Virus record (IMG/VR): IMGVR_UViG_3300012936_000120
Coordinates: 1-28,625 of that record
Direction: 5' to 3' (one strand)
Length of the DNA stretch: 28,625 bases
DNA from: a virus
A program made the translations under genes and the position numbers. The notes beneath the pieces were generated by a model. The model saw only the letters and a list, made by a program, of their open reading frames with translations, was not told where the DNA came from and searched no databases. Positions 9,588 through 18,019 of this stretch are shown here, in pieces (the first letter of the stretch is position 1; each line of letters starts with the position of its first letter).

Positions 9588-10523
9588 TTGGGTAATGAAA
9601 AACTATTTCCATATTTAGTAGGACTTTCCGCACTTATGGTTGCTGGTTCAGCAGCTTTTTATTCAGTATACGGACTTTCAAAATTATTTAGTGGTGCAAC
9701 TTTTGCCGTAATTGTTATGGCAGGTTCATTGGAATTTGCTAAGTTAGTAACTGCATCATTCCTATATAGATTTTGGGATAAGATAAATATTGTTATGAGA
9801 AACTATATGTTAGTTGGTGTGGTAACATTAGTAATTATAACGAGTGCTGGTATCTTTGGATTCTTATCTAATGCATATCAAGGTGCAACAATTGGATTCC
9901 AAAAAGAATCTACTAAGTTATTAGCATTAGAGGAACGACTCGATAATTTACAAGAAGAGAAAAGGTCACTAAAAGATGATTTAGAATTTCAACTTAGTGA
10001 AATGCCTGATAACTATCGTACTGCAAAAAGAAAACTTCGTAATGATTATAATCCACAAATACAAGAAGTCAATCAAGAGGTATTGGATATAAAAGAACAA
10101 ATATCAAATTTAGAATTGAAATTGATTGATACAGGTATTGATGTAGGACCTGCAATTTATTTGGCAAAGATATTCGATACTGATGTAGATACTGTGGTGA
10201 AGTATTTTATATTTGTTCTTATCTTTGTGTTTGACCCAATGGCGGTTGTATTAGTTATCGCATATAATGTAGCGCTTACCAATCGATTATATCAAGATTC
10301 GGGTCCCAGAAAAACAGAAAAAGAGAAAACTTGGAGTGTTTATGGTGAGGGATTTTTGAGTTCACTAAAAGGTAAAATATTCAAAAAAGACGAACCTGTA
10401 ACTTACGAAGAAAAATCGAAAAAGTCAAGCAAAAAAATCAAAGAAATAAAAAAAGATATTATTGAAGACGAAAAGAAACCACATAAATTTGGGAGAGATG
10501 CTCGTAAACCATCACCTAATTAG
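9588..10523 (+). CDS. Membrane protein with central coiled coil (DUF4407-like)
   Basis: TTG 9588 follows AGGAGAATCAA, giving 311 aa. Hydrophobic segments lie at about 8-30, 37-55 and 75-95, then a coiled coil (about 105-185, ALEERLDNLQEEKRSLKDDLEFQ begins it), a further membrane segment with VLIFVFDPMAVVLVIAYNVAL (about 210-232) and a Lys/Ser-rich cytoplasmic tail (KKSSKKIKEIKK). The 'FDPMAV' motif after the coiled coil recalls DUF4407-type membrane proteins. Related proteins recur in marine T4-like phages. Role unknown; tail-tip or envelope interactions are possible. Confidence 0.65.
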   Translation: MGNEKLFPYLVGLSALMVAGSAAFYSVYGLSKLFSGATFAVIVMAGSLEFAKLVTASFLYRFWDKINIVMRNYMLVGVVTLVIITSAGIFGFLSNAYQGATIGFQKESTKLLALEERLDNLQEEKRSLKDDLEFQLSEMPDNYRTAKRKLRNDYNPQIQEVNQEVLDIKEQISNLELKLIDTGIDVGPAIYLAKIFDTDVDTVVKYFIFVLIFVFDPMAVVLVIAYNVALTNRLYQDSGPRKTEKEKTWSVYGEGFLSSLKGKIFKKDEPVTYEEKSKKSSKKIKEIKKDIIEDEKKPHKFGRDARKPSPN

Positions 10524-10525
10524 TT

Positions 10526-13500
10526 ATGAAAATAAATTTAGTTACATCATTTTATAATAACTCACAATACTTTGACGAGATTAGTAAATCTGTAGAAGAG
10601 GCCGTAAAGTTATATCCAAATACAGAATGGGTAGTTACTGATGATTTTGACAAAAGTGATATTGGGATAACTCTAAAAAAATATCAAATAACAAACTACC
10701 ATACAAAAGTTATAACACAAAATTACAAACAAGAACTATATTGGAATCCACATAAATTTTGTGATGGTGATATTATAGTTGGTTTGGATGCAGATGATGT
10801 TTTGATGCCTGATGCATTATGGTATATAAATCATATCTATACAAGATTTCCTGATGTCCATAACTTACACTTCTCTACTAAATTCTACAAGGATAGTTTT
10901 GAATGGAATAACTATCATAATACATCTATGGTAGATTATAAAGATTATGAAAGTTTTGTTGAATATCATAAAGACTATGAACTAAATAAATCAATTGCTG
11001 GTGGACCTTTTAGAGATAAAGAACCACGAGTTGGATATGTTTGGGGTGGGTTGAGATGTTATAAAAATCCTGGTAAAGACTTTGATTTCCTAAAATATTT
11101 TCCACAAGAAATAAAAGACTATGGTAAACACGAAGACTTTGTAAAGTTATCTGTATTACAAACTCTTGGTAAATCACTTTATGTAAACAGACCAATTTAT
11201 AAATTACGAAGACACGATAAACAAACTACAGGAAATTATGTTTGGGAAAATAATGAGAATTACGATGATAATAAATTTTCTGTAATTAGAGATAATGCAC
11301 CTAAACCTAAATATGGATTTGAAAAGGGATTGACATTATGTGATTCGATTACTAATTCACTTGTGGTGTTAGAAGAATTTGATAATATAAATGTAGTTGC
11401 ATTGAAGAATTTTCCAGATGATTTTGATACTATGGAATCACTTAGATGTACTTATCCTGATTTGGTATTTGAAACATATGTAAAAAAAGATACAGACCTC
11501 GTAGTCTTTAGAGTAAATAATATTGATGATTATGCAAATGTAAAATTTGAAATAGATGATTTGAAAGATGATTATAGTATAATAGTATTTTGTGAAGATG
11601 AAAATTTTACACACGAAACTTGTGATGAGGGTGAAGAAAAACTCACCCATATAAAAATGGTAAAATCTCATTTTGAAAAATGTTTATGGACTACATACCT
11701 TTACAAATATTATTGGATAATGTCTGTAAAAGAATCTAAAAAATATAATTTCAATGTTAGATTGGAAACAAGTTTTATAGGTACAACAGGATATAATAAT
11801 CACGCAAGAGACCATTTTACAAAAGTAGATGAAAGAGTACCAGTAAAGATTGGTAACTTTACTATCGGTAAGGGTTGGAAAGGTATGAGTAACGACCCAC
11901 ATAAAAATGAATCTTATATGACACATCAAATATCTACGATGTTAGACCAACAATATTTGTGGAATAAAGATAAACAACTCATAAAAGAACCAATGTATCA
12001 AGATAAACATCTACAAGATGGTAGATGGGATAAGAATGAAGATGAAGTTTACATTGTTTTGAATGAGGCAAATCATCATTTATTTTATCAAGACCATCCA
12101 AATAACATTCCTAAAATTGCATTCAATGTTTGGGAAACTACAAGATATGAAGATAGTTTTTTCAATAAACTTTTAGAGTTTGACCAACTATGGTTACCAA
12201 GTGAGTGGGCAAAACAATGTGTTATAGAACAAGGATATCCTGAAGACAAAGTACAAATCGTAACTGAAGGAGTTGATGGTCAAACATTCTATCCAAAGAA
12301 AGTTGAAGAAAGTGATAGATTCAAATTTATTATTTTTGGTAGATGGGATTATAGAAAATGTACCAAAGAACTTATACAAACATTTCTAAATACTTTTGGT
12401 ATGGATGAAAAAGTAGATTTGATTATATCAGTAGACAATCCTTTTTCTATTGATGGGTTGGAATCTACAGAAGAAAGACTAAAACATTTTGGTTTAGAGG
12501 ATGACCGAATAAAAGTATTACATTTTCCGAGTAGAGAAGAATATATAAATTACATACAACAAGGAAATGTATTTTTATCTTGTGCAAGAAGTGAGGGTTG
12601 GAACTTACCATTGATAGAGGCACTTGCCTGTGGTACTCCATCAATTTGTAGTAATTGGGGTGCACAATTACAATTTGCAAAAGACTATGCGCACTTAGTT
12701 GATATTGTAGATGAAAGACCAGCAGTTGAAGGTGAAGAAACTTTCAACTATAAAGCACCTGGTAATTATTGTGAACCAGACTTTGACCACTTAGGTAAAG
12801 TTATGAGAGATGTCTACGAAAATTATACAGAGTATAAAGAAAAGGCTATACACGATTCTGTATTATTGAGAAATGAATTTCAATGGAAAAGAGTTGCTAA
12901 TAAATCATTGGATGTTATGCAAAATTTGATAAATACATTTGACTCTAATATGTTCAAGGTTGAGTTGAGTAAGAATGAAGATAACCTTGATAAGATAGAA
13001 TATAGTTTTGGTACTGAATTGAATGATGTTGTTGTATCAATAAAAGACTCATCAACTAATCTAACAATATATCATTGTAAGTATGATAAGGTAGATTCTA
13101 ATGTAACTTATTGGGTTGTACCAAATTCATATGTAGATTTTGAAGAAATAAAAATGGATTTTGAAATTGAAGTTTATTCAAATGGTGAACTTTATAATTC
13201 TAAAAAAATTGGATATGGTTCTGATAAACAACATAGATATTTTTATAATTCACCAACAGATAATAATTGGTATAATTTTTATGAAATGAATCATATGAAA
13301 ATTTATGAAAAAGAATTATTTGTAAATGATGAAAGTGTTGTGATTGATGTTGGTGGTAGTTGTGGAGTTTTTACAGACTATGTTTTGAACAAAGGTGCAA
13401 CTCAAGTATTTTGTTTTGAACCAGTACCAGATACATACGAAGACTTATTGAAAACTTTTGAGGACGAACCGAATGTTACAATAATAAATGAGGCGGTAAC

Positions 13501-14518
13501 TACTCACGATTACAAGGTGGATATAAACATACCAAGAAGTGCAACATCAGTATCCACAATAGAATTAGATGATGCAAAACATCACGAGTCAGTTGATAAT
13601 TTGAGTCAAAACTTTTTTGATGACTATGAAACTATTACGGTTGATGGTTGTAATTTTGATGAGTATTTGAAAAAATTTAGAAATGTGGATGTTGTAAAAT
13701 TTGATGTTGAGGGACACGAGTATTCTATTTTTGAAAATTTATCAGATGAGAATATACAAAAGGTAAATCAATGGGTAATAGAATGGCACTTCAATTATGA
13801 TGGTGATAAGATTGATAAAATTTATTATAGACTAAAAGAACTTGGTTATGATGTAAAACTAAATCAAACATCATCAACTGAAGATGGTTATCTAAATAAT
13901 AGTTCTGGTATTTTATTTGCAAAAAAATATAAAGAGAAAAAAGAAAAAGTGATTGTTGATTTTATAGATGGATGTAGAGTAGAAATATTAGATGGTGACT
14001 CAAAAGATGATTACCTAATTCATTTTATCGACAAAGACAATAAAGTACCAACCGAAAAAATAAGAATGAAAACTAATCATTGGTATAAACCTGGTCGTCA
14101 CTATTTTGTAAATTGGAGAGTTGTAGTTTATAGAAATAAAGAATTGATACATACTGAAGATTTAGATTTGAATGGAAAGAATGTAACTATACAATTTGAT
14201 TCAAAGTCACTTGGAGATACTATTGCGTGGTTTCCGTATGTGGAAGAGTTTAGAAAAAAACATAAATGTAATGTCTATGTTTCTACATTCAAAAACTTTT
14301 TGTTTCAGAACAATTATAAAGATATTAATTATTTAGAGCCAGGACAATATGGTGATAATACTTATGCAAGTTATCATATTGGTTGGTACAAAAATGATAA
14401 AGGTGAAATAGACCTTGCAAGAAATAAACAAGATTTTAGAAAAATTCCTTTACAAAAATCAGCAACTGAAATATTAGGTTTAGATTTTGTAGAGATAAAA
14501 CCAAAGGTAAAATTATGA
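10526..14518 (+). CDS. Giant multidomain glycosyltransferase/FkbM methyltransferase with TibC-like N-terminal half
   Basis: A 1330-aa protein. Domains in order: GT-A glycosyltransferase (1-240) with LDADD (88-91, DxD-type); a linker; GT4-type GT-B domain (about 410-810) with FGRWDYRK (605) and the EX7E motif EGWNLPLIE (690-698); a beta module (about 830-920); an FkbM-family methyltransferase (about 925-1110) with IDVGGSCG (941-947) and FDVEGHE (1060-1064); and a C-terminal part (about 1142-1330) matching the N-terminal half of the Aah/TibC strand-loop-strand O-heptosyltransferase family, with SLGDTIAWFPYVEEF from 1228 and PGQYGD...YASYHIGW. The catalytic second half of that enzyme is absent here and is found in the gene after the next. 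The fused enzymes suggest a phage-made glycan on the virion or cell surface. Last four bases overlap the next ATG. Confidence 0.85.
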   Translation: MKINLVTSFYNNSQYFDEISKSVEEAVKLYPNTEWVVTDDFDKSDIGITLKKYQITNYHTKVITQNYKQELYWNPHKFCDGDIIVGLDADDVLMPDALWYINHIYTRFPDVHNLHFSTKFYKDSFEWNNYHNTSMVDYKDYESFVEYHKDYELNKSIAGGPFRDKEPRVGYVWGGLRCYKNPGKDFDFLKYFPQEIKDYGKHEDFVKLSVLQTLGKSLYVNRPIYKLRRHDKQTTGNYVWENNENYDDNKFSVIRDNAPKPKYGFEKGLTLCDSITNSLVVLEEFDNINVVALKNFPDDFDTMESLRCTYPDLVFETYVKKDTDLVVFRVNNIDDYANVKFEIDDLKDDYSIIVFCEDENFTHETCDEGEEKLTHIKMVKSHFEKCLWTTYLYKYYWIMSVKESKKYNFNVRLETSFIGTTGYNNHARDHFTKVDERVPVKIGNFTIGKGWKGMSNDPHKNESYMTHQISTMLDQQYLWNKDKQLIKEPMYQDKHLQDGRWDKNEDEVYIVLNEANHHLFYQDHPNNIPKIAFNVWETTRYEDSFFNKLLEFDQLWLPSEWAKQCVIEQGYPEDKVQIVTEGVDGQTFYPKKVEESDRFKFIIFGRWDYRKCTKELIQTFLNTFGMDEKVDLIISVDNPFSIDGLESTEERLKHFGLEDDRIKVLHFPSREEYINYIQQGNVFLSCARSEGWNLPLIEALACGTPSICSNWGAQLQFAKDYAHLVDIVDERPAVEGEETFNYKAPGNYCEPDFDHLGKVMRDVYENYTEYKEKAIHDSVLLRNEFQWKRVANKSLDVMQNLINTFDSNMFKVELSKNEDNLDKIEYSFGTELNDVVVSIKDSSTNLTIYHCKYDKVDSNVTYWVVPNSYVDFEEIKMDFEIEVYSNGELYNSKKIGYGSDKQHRYFYNSPTDNNWYNFYEMNHMKIYEKELFVNDESVVIDVGGSCGVFTDYVLNKGATQVFCFEPVPDTYEDLLKTFEDEPNVTIINEAVTTHDYKVDINIPRSATSVSTIELDDAKHHESVDNLSQNFFDDYETITVDGCNFDEYLKKFRNVDVVKFDVEGHEYSIFENLSDENIQKVNQWVIEWHFNYDGDKIDKIYYRLKELGYDVKLNQTSSTEDGYLNNSSGILFAKKYKEKKEKVIVDFIDGCRVEILDGDSKDDYLIHFIDKDNKVPTEKIRMKTNHWYKPGRHYFVNWRVVVYRNKELIHTEDLDLNGKNVTIQFDSKSLGDTIAWFPYVEEFRKKHKCNVYVSTFKNFLFQNNYKDINYLEPGQYGDNTYASYHIGWYKNDKGEIDLARNKQDFRKIPLQKSATEILGLDFVEIKPKVKL

Positions 14519-14892
14519 AAGTAGAAATTCCAAATGGTGATTTAGTAGATAAAATTACTATACTAAAAATAAAACAATTGAATGTTATGAATGAAGAAAA
14601 ATTACAGAACATCAAATTAGAATATCAAACTCTAAAACCATTATTGGAAGAAATAGGTATGAGTGAAAATGATAGATTATTTACAGACCTGTTAGATGTA
14701 AATGAAAAGTTGTGGAGAATAGAAGATGACCTTAGAGTGTTGGAAAAAGATAAAGAATTTGGTGATACATTTGTAAATTTGGCAAGAGCAGTATATTTTA
14801 CAAATGATGAAAGAGCTGAAATCAAAAAGAAGATAAATCTAAAAACAGGATCTAAACTTGTTGAAGAAAAGGATTATGTCGAATACAAATAA
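14515..14892 (+). CDS. DUF6165 family protein
   Basis: The 125-aa product begins MKVEIPNGDLVDKITILKIK and ends EIKKKINLKTGSKLVEEKDYVEYK. The block patterns 'NG.lvDKItILkiK', 'LW.iEDdlR..E' and 'LAR.VY..NDeRA.iKkkIN' are those I know as DUF6165, a helical family usually found in glycan clusters; biochemical function unknown. It starts in an ATGA overlap with the 1330-aa gene and overlaps the following giant gene by 17 bases. Its position interrupts what looks like one heptosyltransferase. Confidence 0.75.
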   Translation: MKVEIPNGDLVDKITILKIKQLNVMNEEKLQNIKLEYQTLKPLLEEIGMSENDRLFTDLLDVNEKLWRIEDDLRVLEKDKEFGDTFVNLARAVYFTNDERAEIKKKINLKTGSKLVEEKDYVEYK

Positions 14893-17800
14893 AAAATATG
14901 TTACTTTAGCAATCCATTCTACTGCACAGGCAAAGTATTGGAATAGGGAAGATGGATGGCAAACAGTTGTTGATTTTATGATTGACAAAGGTTATGAGGT
15001 TCATCAAGTAGATTGGGATAGTGGTGAGTATATGGGTAATCATCCACCTAAAGGAATTGTTGATAAGACTCATCTACCCTTACCAGAAACTGCACAGATA
15101 ATAAAAGATAGTGAGTGTTTCATTGGTATTAGTTCAGGACTTTCTTGGTTGGCTTGGTCATTGGATGTTCCCGTTGTTATGGTTAGTGGATTTACAGACC
15201 CAAATTTTGAAATGGATTGTGGTAGAGTGTTCAATGAGAATGTATGTAATTCTTGTTTTAAAGATGAGGAGTTTGATGCTGGTGATTGGAATTGGTGTCC
15301 ACGACATAAAGATACTGATAGAATGTTTGAGTGTTCTAAAGAAATTCATCCATATGAAGTGTTGAATGAAATCAGTAAAATATTATTTCCAAAAAGTAAA
15401 GGTGTAGATTCTTGTAAAGTTATATGTACTTGGATGGGTGGTGATAGACAAAGACGAGATGGACTAAAAAATAGTGGATACAGATATGATTGGCCAGACC
15501 ACGGTCAGTATTGGGAGAAAGATAAAATTTTTGATTCGTTCAAAGAGATTATGACATTGGAACATTCAATTGATGGTGGTAGAAAATATGACACGATAAT
15601 TGTAAACTCATATTCAGAAAATACTGAGATGTACAACTATCTAAATTATATAAATGGTGTTGAGACAAAGAATGGTAAATTTAGAGTATTGAATTTATTA
15701 GACAACGAAGGTAAGAATTACAAATCATACAATGATGCATATAAATATTTTAGAGATGATTATGATTGGTGGATGTTTACACCAGATGATTATGTTTATT
15801 TATCTAATGGTTGGTATCAGGCCACTATAGATAAATTTGAAGAACAAGAAAATACCGCTGTAGTTTCTTTATTAGGTAATGGTCAAGAGTTTTACCCATC
15901 CGCGGATGGTGGGGGTTATTGGGATTTAGATACTACACATTCACACGATGGTGCTATTTTATCCAATACATTTTACTTAGATAAATTGTTAGAATGGTTT
16001 GGTGGAACTTTTCCATATGCATCTGGTGATATACATACCAGCCATCTGGATATGTCGCATGTTCTTGTGGGTGAGATACCATTCACCAATACATTTCAAA
16101 AGTATGGTTATAAGGTTGTGTCTTTTAGTGATACACACGATACTCAATACTTACCAGATGATAAGGTGGAAGAGAAACAAGATGACCTACCACAAGAACC
16201 ACCTGAAGTAAAATGGCCACTAACACATAATGGTAAAATATACTCCATACCATATTGGAATTGGAAAGAAGAAAAATATGATAAGACTAATTTAGAACTT
16301 GAAGATAAATTCAACAATGATGTTTTTATAGTTACGGGTTATCCAAAAGGTGAAGAACGAATAAACTATATGATAGAAACTATAAAACAACTAAGGAAAA
16401 CTGGTAAAGAAATATATGTTGCATCACATTGTCCAATACCAATAGAGATTCAAGAAATGATTGATGGTTCTATATACGATAAAAGAAATGAGTTGATTGA
16501 CCAAGAAAGAGTTTTAGGTGGGTACACAATATATGACAGACGATATGGTTCTTATTATGCAGTATATTGGACTACTGGATATAACGATAGACACGACCAA
16601 TGGGCATCTGTAAAAATACCAATACCACTTGGTAGACACCAAGTTGTATGTATGTCAAATATCCATAATGGATTGGCACTCGCACGAGAGTTGGGTAAAG
16701 ATTTGGCATACATTATAGAATCTGATATAAAGTTAGACGATAGAGATTTAGGTCAGTTTGATTGGATGAAAGACCAAATGAGACTACAAGGTAAAAGTGG
16801 GTATGTACAATCTTTTACAGACCAAAAATTTCCTGGTGGTAGGAAAGAAGGAATTTGGGGAATTGGTATGGAATGGGCTGTAGTTGAACCAAGTTTGTTT
16901 CTTGATAAAGTAGATTGGGCATTTGGTGTTGATGAGTACTTTGAAAAGGCACATAAAAATGGATTACCATCTGCATATCTCGAAGAAGTATTTTTACATT
17001 ACCTAAAAGATGATTTGGATAAATTTATATTTGATGTTATACCAGAAGATACTGATAAGTGTATTTCAAAAGTTTTACCAAACACAATATTGAATCAACA
17101 GATTGATATGAAAGAAGACCCACGATTAGGTGCTGTTATATGTAGGTCTGAAGCTGACCACAATGTAGTTGGTGACCCTTACTTCTGGTTTATAAATTTT
17201 GGTACTGCAGAATATGAATTCCAAACAATCTATACTATCAATGATGAAATTATTTATACAGAAGATTGGATAAGTAAACAAAGTAGAACTCAAGTACCGA
17301 GATTACTTTACACATATTGTTTACGACTAAAAGTACCTAACGAAAACGAAATACATAAAGTACAACTTGTAGGTAAGGATGGAAAAGTTGTAGTGGAAAG
17401 ACAATATGATTCTGAAAATTTTATTCACCTAAATGGTGCCTGTACAATCAATTGTAAAGTGGACACACTTCAATCACTACATTTGATGTATGAGGGACAC
17501 GATGAATATATGGCAATATGTGATGATGGTGGTGTGAGACATTGTACCTTTCATACTATACACTCAAGAGGTGGTTCAAATGATAGATGGTATAAAGAAC
17601 ACAAGTTCTTATATGAGAATAATCTTGAGACAATAGAGTGTGATGACTTTATAGACTTTAGTCCACACGAAGGTATATGGATAAAGAAAATTTATAGAGA
17701 TAACAAACATAAAAATATAAAGGCAATACAAGATAATAAAATTTTTCAAAGATGTTTGTTGAGTAATAATCCATCTTTACCAGATAAATTTATTATTGAT

Positions 17801-18019
17801 ATTGATGATGTTGAGATACAAGAAAATACATTTGTAAAAATAGATGAAAAAGATATTGATAAATTCTTAGATATATATCGTAAAAATAAATACCACCAAC
17901 AACCACATACCATTATAGTGACTTCCGAAAACGAAAAATTGGACATAGAAATATTGAGTGGATATGAGTGGTTGGTAATTGAGAGTGATGGTTACTATGC
18001 TCACATAGGAAAAAAATAA
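14876..18019 (+). CDS. Giant glycosyltransferase protein starting with TibC-like catalytic half
   Basis: ATG 14876 gives 1047 aa (TTG 14858 or 14861 are alternatives), with AAAAGG just before. Residues 8-170 match the catalytic half of Aah/TibC heptosyltransferases: IHSTAQAKYWN (13-23), FIGISSGLSWLAW (82-94), VVMVSGFTDP, and cysteines 124, 127, 141 and 153 (NVCNSCF, WNWCPRH, FECSKE) matching the four-cysteine iron site known in TibC. A second GT-A-like domain (about 190-420) has DWWMFTPDDYV (Asp304, Asp305). A third (about 482-750) begins VFIVTGYPKGEERINYM and has YIIESDIKLDD (611-621). The C-terminal 280 residues are beta-rich and unrecognised. Together with the upstream giant gene it encodes about 2400 residues of glycan machinery. 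Confidence 0.8.
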   Translation: MSNTNKKYVTLAIHSTAQAKYWNREDGWQTVVDFMIDKGYEVHQVDWDSGEYMGNHPPKGIVDKTHLPLPETAQIIKDSECFIGISSGLSWLAWSLDVPVVMVSGFTDPNFEMDCGRVFNENVCNSCFKDEEFDAGDWNWCPRHKDTDRMFECSKEIHPYEVLNEISKILFPKSKGVDSCKVICTWMGGDRQRRDGLKNSGYRYDWPDHGQYWEKDKIFDSFKEIMTLEHSIDGGRKYDTIIVNSYSENTEMYNYLNYINGVETKNGKFRVLNLLDNEGKNYKSYNDAYKYFRDDYDWWMFTPDDYVYLSNGWYQATIDKFEEQENTAVVSLLGNGQEFYPSADGGGYWDLDTTHSHDGAILSNTFYLDKLLEWFGGTFPYASGDIHTSHLDMSHVLVGEIPFTNTFQKYGYKVVSFSDTHDTQYLPDDKVEEKQDDLPQEPPEVKWPLTHNGKIYSIPYWNWKEEKYDKTNLELEDKFNNDVFIVTGYPKGEERINYMIETIKQLRKTGKEIYVASHCPIPIEIQEMIDGSIYDKRNELIDQERVLGGYTIYDRRYGSYYAVYWTTGYNDRHDQWASVKIPIPLGRHQVVCMSNIHNGLALARELGKDLAYIIESDIKLDDRDLGQFDWMKDQMRLQGKSGYVQSFTDQKFPGGRKEGIWGIGMEWAVVEPSLFLDKVDWAFGVDEYFEKAHKNGLPSAYLEEVFLHYLKDDLDKFIFDVIPEDTDKCISKVLPNTILNQQIDMKEDPRLGAVICRSEADHNVVGDPYFWFINFGTAEYEFQTIYTINDEIIYTEDWISKQSRTQVPRLLYTYCLRLKVPNENEIHKVQLVGKDGKVVVERQYDSENFIHLNGACTINCKVDTLQSLHLMYEGHDEYMAICDDGGVRHCTFHTIHSRGGSNDRWYKEHKFLYENNLETIECDDFIDFSPHEGIWIKKIYRDNKHKNIKAIQDNKIFQRCLLSNNPSLPDKFIIDIDDVEIQENTFVKIDEKDIDKFLDIYRKNKYHQQPHTIIVTSENEKLDIEILSGYEWLVIESDGYYAHIGKK

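Follow-up and report, generated by a model that had tools for sequence, protein, structure and literature searches.

The DNA analysed here, called the window, is the whole of IMG/VR virus record IMGVR_UViG_3300012936_000120 (positions 1-28,625). In this window, a glycosyltransferase of the TibC/Aah family is divided between two large proteins, and a gene for a small DUF6165 protein lies between the two parts. Sequence comparison and structure prediction suggest that proteins 1 and 3 probably re-form a two-chain TibC-like GT-B enzyme, which would link two multidomain glycosylation proteins. All three genes are on the plus strand. Protein 1 (10526..14518, 1330 residues) ends with the N-half of the enzyme, comprising a beta-barrel and an N-lobe according to sequence and predicted fold (residues 1137-1329; 13934..14515). 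Its stop overlaps the start of the DUF6165 gene (14515..14892, 125 residues) in an ATGA at 14515..14518, and an AAAGG upstream of this start could serve as the ribosome-binding site. Protein 3 begins at an ATG at 14876 or a TTG at 14858 and ends at 18019, giving 1047 or 1053 residues. The ATG is the likely start judging from the AAAAGGA upstream of it. The overlap with DUF6165 is 17 bases from the ATG and 35 from the TTG. The C-half, a C-lobe with the four iron-finger cysteine positions, occupies the first 170 or so residues of protein 3 (14891..15385), beginning about 6 residues past the ATG.

The halves were compared with NCBIfam model TIGR04414, which has 374 positions and a family cutoff of 200 bits. 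Residues 1137-1329 of protein 1 matched positions 7-194 (E 3e-33, 115.3 bits), and residues 11-175 of protein 3 matched positions 203-374 (E 1.1e-51, 176 bits). Each half alone scores under the cutoff, and a genome search that sums neighbouring matches gave 292.6 bits for the two joined. In a search of solved structures, the N-half aligned to TibC residues 22-201 (E 2.1e-16) and the C-half to residues 217-386 (best E 2.6e-39); by sequence the C-half is thus related to TibC. TibC consists of a barrel (1-97), an N-lobe (98-195), a linker (196-217) and a C-lobe (218-406) (excerpt of PMC4358343). Since the halves cover both sides of it, the break falls at this linker, and on these alignments almost no conserved sequence is lost there. 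When the N-half was predicted by itself, the mean predicted local distance difference test score (pLDDT) was 92.7. The best solved match of this model was TibC (Foldseek E 1e-18, template modelling score 0.87), and VIA-align against TibC 21-207 gave a Z of 23.8 and a root-mean-square deviation of 1.7 over 182 aligned residues. Pfam at E up to 1 gave Glyco_transf_9 and a weak TibC_1st match (E 0.52) for the halves, with no MurG- or Alg-type family among the matches of either one. The single chain of barrel, N-lobe and C-lobe was not found in the window, where two open reading frames (ORFs) carry these parts with DUF6165 in between.

Most of the key TibC residues are kept. Its catalytic base, D110, aligns with D1231 of protein 1 (codon 14216..14218). 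All of the equivalents of its donor contacts T226, K230 and W305 are present, the first two being the T and K of a TAQAK in protein 3 (14921..14935) that align with the phosphate-contacting residues. The iron-finger cysteines C339/C342/C358/C370 have four of four equivalents at the sequence positions (codons starting at 15245, 15254, 15296 and 15332; span 15245..15334). At a threshold of 80% or more of intact rows, the N-half has 38 conserved columns, of which 36 are retained in the window (141 intact rows, with a median of 36), and the C-half has 44, of which 41 are retained (149 intact rows, with a median of 42). Against 61 intact sequences compared earlier, the window retains 51 of the 55 columns conserved at 90%. 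A sequence-only reading of this DNA had proposed that the two regions are the first and second halves of one TibC/Aah-type enzyme, parted at the linker between its Rossmann domains by a complete DUF6165 gene with ATGA and 17-base overlaps, and with almost nothing conserved missing. Each of these points held when checked, the 17-base overlap being counted from the ATG at 14876. The motifs that it had quoted are present where it had placed them, and its C124/C127/C141/C153 are numbered from the same ATG; from the TTG they become 130/133/147/159.

The same split was found in a second contig, IMGVR_UViG_3300030108_004017 (109 kb), which has the same layout as the window and is 98.2% identical to it over 12.66 kb. 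The 163 mismatches and 23 gap openings over this length indicate that the second contig comes from a different virus genome, and the identical gene layout rules out an assembly artefact. Protein 3 is 9 residues shorter in the second contig, a difference that lies outside the C-half.

The sequence-only reading had called for a survey of relatives with intact versions. Profiles of the N-half, the C-half and DUF6165 were used to classify 317 records (316 loci and the window); many of these overlap as pieces of the same contig. Since each viral scan took at most 80 loci and two scans reached a limit of 600 rows, the counts given here are among the matches listed. Both lobes were fused in one ORF in 268 ORF occurrences (180 distinct sequences), with a gap between the N and C profiles of median 6 residues (range -10 to 10). 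A clean split was seen only in the lineage of the window, among these 317 records. Forty ORF rows carried one half only, and 18 of them belong to this lineage, coming from the window, from pieces re-cut from it or from loci that overlap on the second contig. A further 16 match the C profile weakly (E 4e-8 to 9e-7), and we read these as ordinary GT9 enzymes. Three come from L092 and have interrupted frames; at L092 3485-5866, the enzyme and its DUF6165 both lie in a stretch with several interrupted frames, which makes it a broken or error-laden copy. One, from L120, is an unsplit member that lacks the barrel (TIGR04414 84-372), and the rows from L135 and L116 are cut by locus edges and so cannot be classed. 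L120 (2772-6366) holds tandem members: a complete enzyme, the barrel-less copy and then DUF6165. Among bacteria (398 genomes of one phylum), 11 genes in 8 of the 398 genomes scored above the TIGR04414 cutoff, all of them full length. The other listed bacterial matches reach at most 40.3 bits, mostly in the C-lobe part of the model, and these we also read as ordinary GT9 enzymes.

The split could have arisen in either of two ways: DUF6165 and the C-half may have swapped places, or tandem copies of the enzyme may have lost complementary parts. The second route implies that the halves come from two paralogues, which may or may not pair, so it competes as an account of origin and not of function. 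Tandem family members do exist, as in L120, and wide trees give the halves different nearest rows (L030 for the N-half, L207 or L172 for the C-half). We nevertheless hold this origin to be unlikely. The trees lack resolution, and a partner common to both halves is not rejected by approximately unbiased (AU) tests: L030 stands beside the N-half in the best tree (support 51/0) and has a p of 0.23 in the C-half, L089 has p values of 0.44 in N and 0.085 in C, and L172 has 0.106 in N and 0.50 in C. No remnant of a second copy was found in the window, L250 or L255. In a first tree of 62 rows, L089, which is Microcystis phage Mel-JY01, stood next to the N-half and the C-half alike, a pairing for which the tree showed no support value; the wider trees did not retain it and resolved no relationship.

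Several observations weigh against an enzyme kept in two parts. TibC R286, which contacts adenine, is replaced by Thr in the window. The window sits on long end branches, of 0.82 and 0.93 changes per column; they are exceeded by 12 of 150 rows in the N tree and 9 of 150 in the C tree, and the C row was flagged as long. The split is known from one lineage, represented by two contigs with 12 codons changed between them in the halves, which does not cover persistence over deep time. The second contig also carries a divergent TibC-like member in a single chain (37824-38672, minus strand, 161 bits, under the 200-bit cutoff), so the phage may not depend solely on the split pair for such chemistry. 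This second member is a 417-residue ORF, listed as L253 1408-2658 (minus strand), and a reading of its sequence finds the four iron-finger cysteines absent.

The loss of R286 bears on two questions. The first is the sugar donor. The sequence-only reading called the enzyme a heptosyltransferase, which is right as a family name; because the adenine-contacting Arg is replaced by Thr, use of ADP-heptose by this branch is not assured. The R286 column holds Arg in 28 of 61 intact relatives and another residue in 33 of 61, and many members of the family may therefore use other sugar donors. The second question is whether the halves are catalytic at all. They could be docking or oligomerization modules, each serving its own protein with no active site re-formed, and the contact in TibC between an iron-finger and the barrel of the dimer partner (excerpt of PMC4358343) would fit such a use as well as the missing Arg does. 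This seems quite unlikely to us, since the catalytic Asp and the equivalents of T226, K230 and W305 are all kept and the conserved-column scores equal those of intact enzymes.

A second functional alternative is that the break is recent and the enzyme inactive and decaying, looking intact since little time has elapsed. The single lineage, the single-chain member in the sister contig and the small number of changed codons would all agree with this. The codons that did change argue the other way. Between the two contigs, 6 synonymous and 3 nonsynonymous changes were counted in the N-half and 3 and 0 in the C-half, so that only 3 of the 12 codons changed in the halves since the contigs separated are nonsynonymous (P = 1.4e-4 against a neutral nonsynonymous fraction of 0.78, on 12 codons only). 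The corresponding counts are 5 and 0 in DUF6165, 22 and 11 in protein 1 outside the N-half, and 27 and 16 in protein 3 outside the C-half. Neither half contains a frameshift or a stop, and L092, the broken-looking copy, does have interrupted frames. In both trees, the root-to-tip length of the half concerned deviates from the mean by no more than one standard deviation. A recent break is therefore distinctly improbable in our judgment. The sequence-only reading had left the choice between a rebuilt enzyme and a decayed state undecided; neither half looks decayed by these sequence measures, and of the two a maintained two-part enzyme is the better supported. It is hardly credible that the window encodes a single chain, whether through read-through of stops, a frameshift, translational bypass, or an intron or intein that takes in DUF6165. 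The halves share reading frame 2, so skipping would restore the chain, but 18 stops lie in that frame between them, DUF6165 is in a different frame from the halves and so is no intein, the window has no Rfam match at gathering scores and DUF6165 is an ordinary free-standing gene elsewhere. Of these routes, read-through, intein and intron were rejected.

The gene in between was assigned to DUF6165 (PF19662) with an E of 1e-13 and 51.6 bits against a cutoff of 27 bits. To place it among relatives, a scan was seeded with four DUF6165 sequences, three of which adjoin this enzyme or its N-half. For 29 of the 67 distinct DUF6165 matches, an enzyme ORF lies in the same locus, within 60 bases in 26 (two of the window lineage). 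A fused enzyme is directly upstream (at most 60 bases) in 21 cases, and 16 of these 21 show the same 4-base overlap as the window. Where there was room upstream (62 matches), an ORF lies directly upstream in 51, and this is the enzyme in 24 and another ORF in 27. Ten of these 27 were run on Pfam: three are GT7, two FkbM, one GT2 plus methyltransferase and one GT4-like, and the remainder are one GDP-mannose dehydratase, one phosphoesterase and one without a match. At L095 (6001-9597), where a 1067-residue protein has two GT9-type stretches (98-251 and 730-1063), DUF6165 comes just before the enzyme, not after it. Fused enzymes were found in 34 of 80 loci seeded with DUF6165, and DUF6165 was found near the enzyme in 7 of 221 loci seeded with the enzyme (two of the window lineage; 5 of 219 outside it). 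The idea that DUF6165 is the usual neighbour of the enzyme was dropped on account of this last count; the weight given here to each explanation does not depend on it.

The predicted structure of DUF6165 is a four-helix bundle (mean pLDDT 93.9), and a PDB search at E up to 0.001 gave no match for it. Its best VIA-align Z of 6.4 may, for a helical bundle, mean just a common arrangement. Six viral structure matches were obtained from BFVD (E up to 0.001), in proteins of 212-723 residues, where a DUF6165-like bundle would form a single domain within a longer chain. Five of the six carry giant-virus names (Pithovirus, Mimivirus, Hyperionvirus, Klosneuvirus and Solumvirus); among the six, one is named a glycosyltransferase and one an acetyltransferase. 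No literature on DUF6165 was found among open-licence papers. Its neighbourhoods and predicted fold suggest a small adaptor or partner protein, encoded time and again next to genes for glycan modification. The word "inserted", as used in the sequence-only reading, is thus apt for its position between the halves and not for a random or mobile intruder, given that it recurs downstream of the intact enzyme and of other glycan genes.

What we infer about the two-chain enzyme concerns its assembly, its activity, its acceptor, its sugar and any role of DUF6165. In the lineage of the window, a TibC-like GT-B glycosyltransferase that is otherwise a single chain is divided at the linker between its lobes. 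Protein 1 ends with the barrel and N-lobe, which include the catalytic Asp, and protein 3 starts with the C-lobe, which brings the donor site and the positions of the iron-finger. Since GT-B lobes lie on opposite sides of a cleft, a broken linker can be tolerated provided that something keeps them together, and the enzyme most likely re-forms non-covalently when proteins 1 and 3 meet. Pairing could be aided by tandem translation of the three overlapping genes and by contacts between barrel and iron-finger like those between TibC protomers. By analogy, the contact in the TibC dimer suggests a docking surface between the barrel-bearing chain and the finger-bearing chain. The helical DUF6165 protein is encoded, and perhaps bound, between the two. 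More tentatively, and with real doubt, the shared active site might tie two megasynthase-like phage proteins together, with sugar transfer occurring only once both, perhaps with DUF6165 as a scaffold, have assembled.

Protein 1 carries further domains by profile match: GT2-like (residues 6-98), GT4-like (591-722) and FkbM methyltransferase (954-1109). The remaining 870 or so residues of protein 3 (15413-18019) gave no Pfam match at E up to 0.1, and the best E for its last 868 residues against the PDB is 0.057. The only relatives are local ones in other phage proteins, for a stretch near the middle (best E 5e-13). A 311-residue protein (9588-10523) ends 2 bases before protein 1. Judged by eye, it contains hydrophobic segments as well as a charged region resembling a coil; a PHROG search at E up to 0.01 gave no match, and its Pfam matches are all below cutoff. 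Phage-type genes elsewhere in the window include PhoH, Hsp20, an AAA ATPase, ClpP and peptide deformylase.

If the two-chain enzyme is real, it represents a natural split in the TibC/Aah family, whose other members found are single chains, and a case of a GT-B enzyme divided at the linker with both halves becoming domains of other proteins. It also brings forward DUF6165 as a small helical protein recurring beside phage glycan genes. A search of open-licence papers by title found, among those listed, no split described for the TibC/Aah family, and open-licence papers gave nothing on a phage O-heptosyltransferase with a glycosyltransferase. The sequence-only reading had regarded a working split GT-B enzyme that tethers two megasynthase-like glycosylation proteins as new. 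Split GT-B enzymes are already known as a kind, and as far as this search shows, such a split is new for the TibC/Aah family. The precedents are Alg14/Alg13 and EpsE/EpsF, which the excerpt of PMC8993221 describes as GT-B enzymes split between the lobes into two genes, one for the N-lobe part and one for the C-lobe part. The placing of the lobes on separate genes is as in the window. These pairs belong to a MurG-like sequence family, unlike the window halves, and the excerpt mentions neither an interposed gene nor fusion to further glycosyltransferase domains.

The window enzyme resembles TibC/Aah (TIGR04414; PDB 4RAP, 4RB4) in that both halves align nearly end to end, key residues are kept and the N-half shares the fold. 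It differs from TibC in occurring as two chains, each fused to other domains, in a viral record, and in having Thr for R286. The bacterial enzymes of the family are autotransporter heptosyltransferases, characterized by a dodecameric assembly, ADP-heptose as donor and an autotransporter as acceptor. A closer comparison is the 1226-residue protein of Mel-JY01 (L089 3412-7092), which is annotated "methyltransferase FkbM" yet ends in a complete TibC-like enzyme (317 bits). Its GT4-like region is 44% identical to protein 1 over 408 aligned positions, and its TibC-like enzyme is C-terminal, like that at the end of protein 1. The difference is that the Mel-JY01 enzyme is in one piece; no DUF6165 was found within the 12.6 kb examined there. 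The DUF6165 genes of other phages are of the same family as that of the window and often have the same 4-base start overlap with the upstream gene. Elsewhere they follow a complete enzyme or another gene, whereas in the window DUF6165 follows the N-half only.

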